From positions 124,001-188,000 of the forward strand of contig CALJOK010000013.1 of the NCBI GenBank assembly GCA_937981555.1: 64,000 nt of DNA. Reading direction: 5' to 3'. The DNA is from an uncultured Saprospiraceae bacterium. GTDB taxonomy: Bacteria; Bacteroidota; Bacteroidia; Chitinophagales; Saprospiraceae. Within the stretch, counting starts at the first letter, position 1; each line of letters begins with the position of its first letter. Shown piece by piece: positions 35,002 to 37,336 of this stretch. Position numbers and translations under genes: made by a program. Under the pieces are notes generated by a model, which was given only the letters and a program-made list of their open reading frames with translations, was not told the origin of the DNA and did no database searches.

Positions 35002-35039
35002 AAAAAGCTCATTCGGAATTAATCGAATGAGCTTTTTTT
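35002..35039. terminator. Bidirectional terminator
   Basis: Stem GCTCATTCG / CGAATGAGC (8-base loop) flanked by A5 and T7 serves the alkD-like gene and the converging permease-repressor gene, whose stop overlaps the T-tract. Confidence 0.85.
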
Positions 35040-36567
35040 ATGATAAAACATTTACTTGTTTCGCAAGATATTTTGGCACTCGAATTATTTTTCCATTCAT
35101 CTCTACTTCCACCGATTTTTCTTCTATTTTTTTAATTGTAAATGTAGTGTTAGGTAACAAACCTAATTTCCAAAGTTGTGCAGTAATATGTTCGTTGACT
35201 TGTTGTTGCGCTATTTTTGCATTTTGTAAAATGGGTAAATTGATCAATGGGAAATCAGGAATTCCTAATTTCTTTGGAATCGGAGAACCGTGTGGATCAG
35301 TCGTTGGAAAACCTAATTTCAAATCTACTTCATCCAATAATTCTTCCGTCAAAAGGTGTTCAAGTTTTTCTGCATCTTCATGAATTTGTTCTTCCGTCAA
35401 ACCAATTTCTTGAACCAAATAAGTTTCCCAAAGTCGATGTGCTCTAACCATTTTCGTCGCTTCTTTTTGACCAGAAGAAGTAAGTATGACTTGGTTGTTT
35501 TCCATTTTTACAAAACCATTTCTTTGCAAAGTTTTTAGACGAGTTCGAAGAGCAGATTTATTGAAATCTAATTTGTCCAAAAGAGTAGGGAAGGAGAGTT
35601 CTTCTTTGCTATGGAGTTTTAATGCTTGCTTTAAAGTATCTTCTAATTGAATTTTTTGTTGCAATTTTCTTTTTCTGAAAGTTCGGAAAACCAAACCTTT
35701 TTTAGGAGCAAAAAGTGCTGCGATTAAATAGAACAATGTAGCAACCACAGTCATGGCAGGTCCAGGAGTTGTATCTAAGAGTACCGCTAAAATAAATCCG
35801 ACTACTGTGGAAAGTACACCCACAATTCCAGAAATAGCTACAGCCCAATGTAATCGATCTGTCAATAATAAAGCGGTCGCTGCAGGGGTAATCAACATGG
35901 CTACCACCAAAATAACGCCTACCGTAGTCAACGATGCGACCACCGCTACGGACAATAAAAGCATCAAATAATAGTGAATAACTTTAGTAGAAATACCCAT
36001 CGTCTCAGCGATGACAGGTTGGAAAGTTGTCGCAAAAAGGTAGCGATAAAAAATGACGATACTCAACACGACATAGATCATAATTCCAATCGTCAAATTC
36101 ACATCTTGTGTCGAAACACTCAACACATTTCCAAATAAAAAATCAGTCAAATCGGGAACATGAACACCACTTTCTTGCTTGCTGATTCTCGAAATTCCCA
36201 TGACTCCCATCGCGAACATAGCGGTAAAAACAATTCCTATCGCCGCATCATTTTTAGTGTTGATATTATGTTGTAGCCAAGTAATTCCGACGGCTGCGAC
36301 TAGCCCTGCGATAACTGCTCCGGTGAAAATTCCTAAAGCGGTATTTCCAAAAATTACAAAAGCTACGACTACTCCTGGCAAAACCGCATGCGACAAAGCA
36401 TCTCCAATTAATGCCATATTTCGAAGAACAATAAAACAACCTAACATTCCGCACATCAATCCAACCATCGCAGATGCTGCTAATGCTCGAAACCCAATGT
36501 CCATTCTGAAAAAATCACTTAGGACATTGAAGATGTCTTCTTGAAAAAAAACGTATACTTGCTCCAT
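35038..36567 (-). CDS. Manganese/iron/zinc ABC permease fused to DtxR/MntR-type repressor
   Basis: ATG 36567 is preferred to a longer frame from 36600, which would run into the -7 promoter region. Residues 1-288 are a polytopic MntB/ZnuB-type permease (ASAMVGLMCGMLGCFIVLRNMALIGDALSHAVLPGV; LTTVGVILVVAMLITPAATA). A very basic linker (289-303) leads to a winged HTH (about 313-365), then a DtxR metal-sensing/dimer domain (366-435) with H377, E381, H396, E400, E403 and H404, ending DPHGSPIP. An SH3/FeoA-like tail follows (about 462-509). Glu400 stands where DtxR has Cys102, as in Mn-sensing MntR. The partner ATPase and binding protein are not in the window. The same architecture is known in chlamydial YtgCR. 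Confidence 0.93.
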   Translation of the reverse strand: MEQVYVFFQEDIFNVLSDFFRMDIGFRALAASAMVGLMCGMLGCFIVLRNMALIGDALSHAVLPGVVVAFVIFGNTALGIFTGAVIAGLVAAVGITWLQHNINTKNDAAIGIVFTAMFAMGVMGISRISKQESGVHVPDLTDFLFGNVLSVSTQDVNLTIGIMIYVVLSIVIFYRYLFATTFQPVIAETMGISTKVIHYYLMLLLSVAVVASLTTVGVILVVAMLITPAATALLLTDRLHWAVAISGIVGVLSTVVGFILAVLLDTTPGPAMTVVATLFYLIAALFAPKKGLVFRTFRKRKLQQKIQLEDTLKQALKLHSKEELSFPTLLDKLDFNKSALRTRLKTLQRNGFVKMENNQVILTSSGQKEATKMVRAHRLWETYLVQEIGLTEEQIHEDAEKLEHLLTEELLDEVDLKLGFPTTDPHGSPIPKKLGIPDFPLINLPILQNAKIAQQQVNEHITAQLWKLGLLPNTTFTIKKIEEKSVEVEMNGKIIRVPKYLAKQVNVLS

Positions 36568-36587: not shown

Positions 36588-36615
36588 CAAAGATAAACAT
36601 TTTTTACTAACCAAA
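36588..36615 (-). promoter_or_regulatory. Promoter of the permease-repressor fusion gene
   Basis: On the minus strand TATCTTTG (36595-36588) is an exact TAnnTTTG -7 element. TTTG (36615-36612) lies 16 bases upstream as the -33. The start codon follows 20 bases after the -7 element. Confidence 0.7.
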
Positions 36616-36620
36616 AATAT

Positions 36621-36642
36621 ATTTTTAGATTAGTCTAAAAAT
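36621..36642. promoter_or_regulatory. Candidate MntR/DtxR operator
   Basis: A perfect palindrome with 9-base arms, ATTTTTAGA - TTAG - TCTAAAAAT, resembles DtxR/MntR boxes (TTAG..CTAA type). It lies five bases upstream of the -33 element of the fusion gene and 10 bases before the start of the divergent nucleotidase gene, so it could control both. Confidence 0.65.
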
Positions 36643-36652
36643 AACATGATTT

Positions 36653-37336
36653 ATGAAATACGATTGGCTACTTTTTGATTTGGATAATACGATTTTGGAT
36701 TTTGATCAGGCGATGGTTTTTGCTTTTAAAAAAACGATTGTAGATTTTAAAATTCCTGAAAAGGAGGAACATTTTTTTATATATGATACGATCAATAAAA
36801 GGTGTTGGGAAGATTTAGAAAAAGGAAAAATTACTCAAAACCAATTGCGGACGCTTCGCATGGAGCGATTTTTAAGACATATTGGTTCAACTGAAAGTCC
36901 ACTTCATTTCTCTGAAAGATATCATGAAAATTTGTCTGCAAAGATTTTTTGGATGGAAGATGCGAAACCTTTAATTGAAGATTGGAGTGAGCAATTTAAA
37001 ATGACTTTGGTGACAAATGGCTTGAAAGAAATTCAGCGAGCACGATTGGCGAAAACTGATTTGGAAAAACATTTTCAACATATTGTGATCTCTGACGAAA
37101 TTGGGGTGGCGAAACCTCATCGTGGTTTTTTTGATTATGTTTTTGAGAAAATTGATTTTCCTAAAAAAGAAAAGGTATTAATTATTGGGGATAGTTTGAG
37201 TTCAGATATTCGAGGTGGGAATAATTATGGAATTGATACTTGTTGGATAAATTTGAAAGGGAAAGTGGCGCACGAACATAATACACCTACTTTTACGATT
37301 GAGAAATTGGAAGAGTTGAAGGGGATTATTTTGTAG
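36653..37336 (+). CDS. YjjG-family noncanonical pyrimidine nucleotidase (HAD)
   Basis: A 227-residue HAD phosphatase: motif I DLDNTILDF, motif II LVTNGLKEIQRARL, motif III KPHRGFFDYVF, motif IV IIGDSLSSDIRGG. The VTNG and GDSLSSD variants and the helical cap match YjjG/YfnB enzymes, which dephosphorylate (mis-incorporable) pyrimidine nucleotides. Divergent from the permease-repressor gene, with the candidate Mn operator 10 bases before the start. Manganese-linked control would be new for this family if true. Confidence 0.9.
   Translation: MKYDWLLFDLDNTILDFDQAMVFAFKKTIVDFKIPEKEEHFFIYDTINKRCWEDLEKGKITQNQLRTLRMERFLRHIGSTESPLHFSERYHENLSAKIFWMEDAKPLIEDWSEQFKMTLVTNGLKEIQRARLAKTDLEKHFQHIVISDEIGVAKPHRGFFDYVFEKIDFPKKEKVLIIGDSLSSDIRGGNNYGIDTCWINLKGKVAHEHNTPTFTIEKLEELKGIIL

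Follow-up and report, generated by a model that had tools for sequence, protein, structure and literature searches.

A DtxR-like domain fused to a manganese-type ABC permease in Saprospiraceae, probably a metal gauge of the transporter

The fusion of an ATP-binding cassette (ABC) metal permease to a repressor-like domain is an architecture already known from Chlamydia. For YtgR, the C-terminal half of chlamydial YtgC-R, cleavage and DNA binding have been reported (PMC5599777, PMC7755916, PMC6504234). According to a review (PMC5599777), Thompson et al. 2012 saw permease-repressor fusions in 11 phyla; the review holds that the same transcriptional mechanism may exist throughout those phyla. A fusion of this type is described from the window, a stretch of 64,000 nucleotides of an uncultured Saprospiraceae bacterium (GenBank assembly GCA_937981555.1, contig CALJOK010000013.1, positions 124,001 to 188,000). 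Its gene is located at 35038..36567 of the window, on the minus strand. The product is probably the membrane subunit of a Mn2+ ABC importer, with the DtxR-like domain turned from a repressor into the metal gauge of the transporter.

The fusion protein is 509 amino acids (aa) in length, or 520 aa from an alternative in-frame upstream ATG at 36600; residue numbers refer to the 509-aa form unless the 520-aa form is stated. It consists, all on the minus strand, of the ABC-3 metal permease (residues 1-288, 35704..36567), a coupling linker (289-308, 35644..35703), a winged helix-turn-helix (wHTH; 309-374, 35446..35643), an MntR-type metal-sensing/dimerisation domain (375-431, 35275..35445) and an SH3/FeoA-like tail assigned by alignment (432-509, 35041..35274). 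In the wHTH, E309 and D310 are conserved; the recognition helix (336-350) and wing (354-361) are not. Pfam ABC-3 (PF00950) matches residues 37-297 of the 520-aa form (E 5.6e-69, 233 bits against a cut-off of 20.1, profile positions 6-257 of 258), and the closest solved relative of this part is the Mn ABC transporter permease 7kyp (1.4e-48). PF02742 (Fe_dep_repr_C) matches residues 374-443 of the 520-aa form (E 3.9e-27, 94.5 bits against 27, profile positions 1-70 of 70). With both families over their cut-offs on one frame, the initial annotation, which saw here a permease fused to a metal module of the DtxR/MntR family, is borne out, as are its basic linker RTFRKRK (residues 295-301) and its ligand positions H377, E381, H396, E400, E403 and H404. 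Its full DtxR repressor needs correction in the wHTH, which is not of full DtxR type. PF01325 (DtxR DNA-binding) is absent among the families listed at E<=1 for the fusion protein. The best HTH family match is HTH_20 (E 0.0026), under that family's own cut-off. On the stand-alone MntR of the same genome PF01325 scores 9.2e-13 (48.6 bits, cut-off 26); in the PF01325 scan of relatives a second match from the window's genome (G000) at E<=0.01 was counted and is not among the matches listed. The alignment of the SH3-like tail, also named in that annotation, with 6o5c and NF047407 reaches residue 518 of the 520-aa form; PF04023 is not among the families listed for it at E<=1. In 12 of 67 orthologues the chain goes on for fewer than 40 residues past H404, and the tail is missing.

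The fusion is widespread among relatives. A search of relatives for the fusion and its partners, suggested in the initial annotation, covered 100 genomes of the family, that of the window among them, from 99 genera. In 67 of them there is a fusion with a permease sharing more than 45% identity with that of the window; a frame-shift or assembly accident is thereby ruled out as its origin. In six further genomes there is a YtgC-like fusion with a second permease after it. Excluded from the 67 are G034, in which a contig end cuts the gene, and G033, whose permease has no DtxR part (L084 2989-3969, an orthologue which stops just past the linker). G033 keeps an MntR-SBP-ATPase operon with its operator elsewhere (L130). 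The fusion is the sole strong ABC-3 match in 67 of 67 genomes (three have a second of 22-32 bits, cut-off 20.1). A substrate-binding protein (SBP) is present in 64 and a PF01325 protein over the cut-off in 63. A phylum sample of 392 genomes added 4 close fusions from beyond the family and at least 21 new YtgC-like ones among the 30 loci listed.

The window's genome comprises 7.25 Mb in 117 contigs. The fusion is its one and only ABC-3 permease; a second was considered and rejected. One ZnuA-type SBP is present, and two PF02742 proteins, which are the fusion and the stand-alone MntR of 219 aa. MntR, SBP (344 aa) and ATPase (247 aa) are consecutive on contig C31, without a permease. No ATPase or SBP gene adjoins the fusion gene, as had been recorded initially; both are those on C31. 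The 18-bp palindrome TTTTAGACTAATCTAAAA occurs exactly at two places only in the genome, upstream of the fusion and upstream of the MntR-SBP-ATPase operon. The first copy, TTTTAGATTAGTCTAAAA, is the predicted MntR operator at 36623..36640 (no strand assigned), 22 bp ahead of the upstream ATG of the fusion; the identical second copy is located at C31:7709-7726. Since the palindrome precedes both the fusion and an operon lacking a permease, the Mn importer is divided between two loci sharing one predicted operator. The octamer TATTTTTG (36612..36619, minus strand), 3 bp downstream of the operator, matches TAnnTTTG, which we take to be the -7 box consensus of Bacteroidota. Some relatives show the order MntR-SBP-ATPase-permease::DtxR (L105, L106, L050), and the fusion adjoins the ATPase in 6 of 67 orthologues. 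In G036 a single frame of 530 aa (L065 1329-2921) matches SBP and ATPase, possibly another fusion in the same system.

At 2 mismatches or fewer the palindrome is found 47 times in the genome against 44 in the reversed control, which is no excess; with up to 3 mismatches it is found 7 times in the window against 3.07 expected, and 5 of 100 shuffles reach 7. Only exact matches therefore carry weight. The single site with one mismatch (C77) was set aside, lying inside a long frame, presumably that of a sensor kinase-like protein. In the family, an operator score of at least 13 of 16 is reached before 49 of the 60 fusion genes not ending an SBP-ATPase operon, before 0 of the 6 which end one, and before 49 of 51 MntR-SBP operons. 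In a first control, 44 of 534 upstream regions scored at least 13; once the sequence preceding fusion, MntR and SBP genes was masked, 10 of 457 did. A TAnnTTTG box lies within 40 bp past the operator in 35 of 49 fusion promoters and 32 of 49 MntR promoters, against 5% in shuffled fusion-promoter tails. In fusion promoters the box follows the operator after 2-10 bp in 14 genes and after 17-29 bp in 21; in MntR promoters it follows after 1-9 bp in 30 of 32. A divergent gene of the window (36653-37336), presumably for a HAD-type hydrolase-like product, begins at a distance of 12 bp from the operator, whose control it might share.

The fused domain and the stand-alone MntR were compared by mean pairwise identity in 50 genomes having both the fusion and an MntR adjoining the SBP (1225 genome pairs). 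Identity of the recognition helix is 0.224 in the fused domain against 0.742 in MntR, with MntR higher in 1225 of 1225 pairs and a difference of 0.487-0.546 by bootstrap over genomes. Values for the wing are 0.121 and 0.603 (MntR higher in 1211 pairs), for the sensor domain 0.667 and 0.740. The MntR helix is S-A-A-S-V-T-D-M, identical in 50 of 50 genomes at positions 338, 339, 340, 343 and 347. Fused helices retain chiefly the hydrophobic core positions 340, 344 and 347. The unmatched comparison of 67 fused and 53 stand-alone domains gives the same picture (recognition helix 0.219 against 0.585). Between the window's genome and its congener G078, the ratio of non-synonymous to synonymous substitution rates (dN/dS) is 0.03 for the permease, 0.01 for the sensor and 0.25 for linker and wHTH, on few changes and by a rough method; MntR has 1 non-synonymous change in the 67 sites of helix and wing and 9 in the 164 of the whole wHTH, synonymous sites being saturated. 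A conserved operator, a conserved MntR helix and an unconserved fused helix together point to the stand-alone MntR, not the fused domain, as the probable reader of the operator. The fused half had initially been taken for the transporter's own repressor, which the separate MntR, the shared operator and the helix values do not support. Loss of DNA contacts, named in the initial annotation as what would overturn its proposal, is closely approached by the helix comparison over the 50 genomes, a measure of conservation and not of binding.

The metal site is retained. In MntR, Mn2+ sits between helix 1 (Asp8, Glu11) and the dimer domain (His77, Glu99, Glu102, His103) (PMC6860424), as a 'glue' which joins HTH and dimer domains and restricts the HTH domains (PMC9861239). 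The fusion shares with MntR, TroR and DtxR the sensor/dimerisation domain and residues at MntR ligand positions 8, 77, 99, 102 and 103 (PMC6860424), in agreement with the Mn-type ligands initially proposed. An extra ligand candidate, D310, aligns with MntR Asp8. Unlike the stand-alone repressors, the DtxR-like domain is fused to a permease, its helix and wing are unconserved, PF01325 is not listed, and Glu11 is replaced by Lys or Arg. All 72 fused proteins retain D310, H377, E381, H396, E403 and H404; at position 400, 62 have Glu and 10 Asp. Position 310 is Asp in 72 of 72 fused proteins against Asn in 46 and Asp in 7 of 53 stand-alone MntRs. At the Glu11 position, 59 of 67 fusions have Lys and 8 have Arg; the 53 stand-alone MntRs of the family all have Lys.

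A Gly past the last membrane helix (G291 in the window's protein) precedes the Glu309 position by exactly 18 residues in each of the 72 close fusions. The same spacing is found in 26 of 27 YtgC-like Bacteroidota fusions, in 8 of 9 membrane-anchored DtxR-FeoA proteins and, among Chlamydiota fusions passing the filter, in 39 of 39 and 20 of 20. The distance from E309 to H377 varies: it is 64-76 for the close fusions and, in 21 Chlamydiota fusions, 46-74. A fixed spacer beside a wHTH of variable length suggests, at the level of sequence, that the membrane part is rigidly coupled to the helix bearing D310. The invariant length fits poorly with a flexible linker cut by a protease, although cleavage could still occur.

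We favour, as rather probable, the reading of the fused domain as a metal gauge. A homodimer is expected because there is one permease gene; it would place two fused domains side by side under the membrane, where they would pair through their dimerisation domains. At high cytosolic Mn2+, helix 1 (D310) would be clamped to the sensor (E400, E403, H404), as in MntR. The clamped modules would then hold permease and ATPase at rest through the fixed linker, that is, by trans-inhibition. The stand-alone MntR would provide slow control: loaded with Mn2+, it would bind the palindrome before both units and stop their transcription. MetNI and ModABC are described as trans-inhibited by dimeric cytosolic domains (PMC10710835). 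The proposed logic would be alike, with cytosolic substrate on a dimeric cytosolic domain stopping transport. In MetNI and ModABC the regulatory domain is located on the ATPase (MetN C2) and has another fold, whereas here it is located on the permease and is DtxR-like; the C31 ATPase has just 247 aa. Porphyromonas gingivalis presumably belongs to the same phylum as the window's genome. Its PgMntR is likewise a DtxR module with FeoA tails, in that case a twin FeoA (PMC4805248); unlike the fusion it was purified as a soluble DNA-binding protein and has no permease (PMC4805248).

Several points weigh against this reading. The inhibition of transport is itself something we infer, and chlamydial YtgR is reported as a cleaved DNA binder. 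The YtgC-like two-permease types have one fused and one plain permease; the paired picture is not simply transferable to them, as only one subunit carries the domain. Four of the 67 fusion genomes are without a PF01325 match over the cut-off and lack a clear stand-alone DtxR protein (G079, G036, G054, G009; drafts, 72-94% complete), and two of these, G079 and G054, keep an operator at the fusion gene (scores 15 and 13). Among the matches listed, PF01325 weakly matches the fused proteins of G095 (24.9 bits) and G014 (21.9 bits), the cut-off being 26. No good operator precedes 11 of the 60 fusion genes standing alone, and 17 of the 67 fusion genomes have no MntR-SBP pair passing the filter (in G062 and G019 the genes are present, with an overlap beyond the limit). 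The rest of the wHTH is also less conserved in the fused domain (0.372 against 0.549, MntR higher in 1149 of 1225 pairs), and so is the sensor (MntR higher in 982). The fused helix is basic, with a mean net charge of +3.4 against +2.0 in MntR, and the fused wHTH is under some purifying selection (dN/dS 0.25; helix and wing 0.38, on few changes). Such constraint, with a basic helix, makes unspecific DNA binding by the fused domain possible. Fused helices have an identity of 0.222 to the MntR consensus helix, above the maximum of 200 shuffles (0.184), a likeness such as common descent would give. Structure prediction by AF2 without an alignment was unusable as evidence (mean pLDDT 45.3 for the fusion, 43.9 for the C-terminal part).

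Two other groups of proteins were seen in relatives. The first (L176-L194) comprises tandem ABC-3 permeases, each ending in a wHTH-like tail without a metal sensor (e.g. L176 2965-5239), in the gene order SBP-ATPase-PermA-PermB, with MntR nearby in some; Pfam listed nothing for the tail in the two L176 proteins tested. The second (L092 4589-7904; similar in L091, L093, L141-L146) comprises proteins of one membrane helix, a DtxR module and FeoA tails, with an unconserved recognition helix (9 proteins). In L092 the two genes directly downstream encode FeoB in separate GTPase and membrane parts; at the other loci, genes of comparable size come next. These anchored proteins look like the same gauge module on another metal importer.

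The likeness to chlamydial YtgC-YtgR noticed in the initial annotation holds. Both have an ABC-3 permease and a DtxR module on one chain with the same junction; the 18-residue spacing is present in 59 of 59 filtered Chlamydiota fusions, and the sensor ligands are the same except at position 310, which is Asp in the window's family and Asn or His in Chlamydiota. Further differences are found. The window's genome has a separate MntR, so that the fused module is not its sole DtxR-type regulator; a search of 26 Chlamydiota genomes, with the fusion as query, returned one weak stand-alone DtxR-like match only (158 aa, G510). The window's system has a single permease, for which a homodimer is expected, whereas YtgC-R is accompanied by a second permease, YtgD (PMC7755916). 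No operon of the ytgABCD type is present, SBP and ATPase being on C31, and the fused recognition helix is unconserved in the window's family.

Of 27 Chlamydiota genomes chosen through a 16S pattern, 26 were covered. A fusion was found in 21 of these 26, with identities of 0.240 in the recognition helix and 0.664 in the sensor; part of the HTH is missing in five (L311, L313, L315, L320, L321). Of 46 Chlamydiota loci in all (L301-L321, L368-L392), 7 failed the anchor filter, and the 39 left gave 0.255 and 0.689. A group of small genomes (1.0-1.3 Mb) was drawn from a search of 140 genomes, part of whose matches were used; it comprises 20 of G513-G535, with G534 and G535 left out and G528 without a fusion-like match. 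Their size and the WWW motif known from YtgC (PMC7755916), which occurs in 13 of the 20 and in 0 of the 39 other Chlamydiota fusions, are the grounds for regarding the 20 as mostly Chlamydiaceae. Recognition-helix identity in the small-genome group is 0.444 at a sensor identity of 0.679, where a single family is a closer sample and the region carries an insertion. The measure of helix conservation thus behaves as expected, since Chlamydiaceae, reported DNA binders, show the higher helix identity. With slightly less than even confidence, the fused domains of the sampled Bacteroidota (72 close, 27 YtgC-like) and of the Chlamydiota outside the small-genome group (39) may be regarded as metal-gated trans-inhibition domains instead of repressors, with DNA reading retained or recovered in Chlamydiaceae.

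Release of the C-terminal half by a protease, as in YtgR, is an unlikely alternative. The freed half would repress the transporter genes or lineage-specific targets, its helix differing between species. In its favour, the architecture is that of YtgC-R, with its reportedly cleaved and DNA-binding C-terminal part, the fusion gene has an operator, and the helix value of the small-genome Chlamydiota is as expected where DNA reading is kept. Within the window's family, however, the operator is conserved alongside a conserved MntR helix while the fused helix stands at 0.22, the linker has one length in all 72 proteins, and the families listed for the window's protein do not include PF01325. A free regulator might conceivably arise from an internal translation start in the linker: the linker stretch has ATG in 9 of 67 orthologues, and ATG, GTG or TTG in 48 of 67, the window's gene included (TTG).

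It is improbable that the domain is a relic, or a docking or stability domain whose tail serves only to hold the ATPase or to make the permease more stable, the metal being a structural cofactor. Related tandem permeases do have a wHTH-like tail without a metal sensor, one orthologue (G033) has lost the domain, and 12 of 67 are without the SH3-like tail; a relic would hardly be expected to show metal ligands intact in all 72 proteins or a dN/dS as low as 0.01 in the sensor. A membrane trap, in which the fused domain pairs with MntR through the dimerisation domain, retains it at the membrane and so lets the level or activity of the transporter tune MntR, is quite improbable: sensor and dimer domains are strongly conserved in both proteins and a PF01325 protein scoring over the cut-off is present in 63 of the 67 fusion genomes, yet the difference at position 310 (Asp in 72 of 72 fused, Asn in 46 and Asp in 7 of 53 MntRs) suggests separately tuned sensors, which might still pair.

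A neighbouring protein of the window carries a sorting domain of the type IX secretion system (T9SS), an association that suggests Bacteroidota.

As far as the literature was searched, three features of the fusion are new: a split system with a separate MntR and a shared operator, a fused DNA-reading helix eroded relative to the MntR of the same genome, and an invariant linker. In that literature, outside which most subscription papers lay, neither trans-inhibition by a fused DtxR domain nor loss of DNA reading in such a domain was found proposed. No protein-level shut-off mechanism for ABC-3 importers was met in the available part of a review of transporter switching (PMC10710835) or in one literature search. 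The comparison predicts that the 'repressor' half of many permease-repressor fusions does not read DNA. Protein-level shut-off of Mn, Zn and Fe importers of the ABC-3 type thereby becomes a question open to direct test. If true, the fusion would also be a clean example of how a domain of a transcription factor became the regulatory domain of a membrane transporter.

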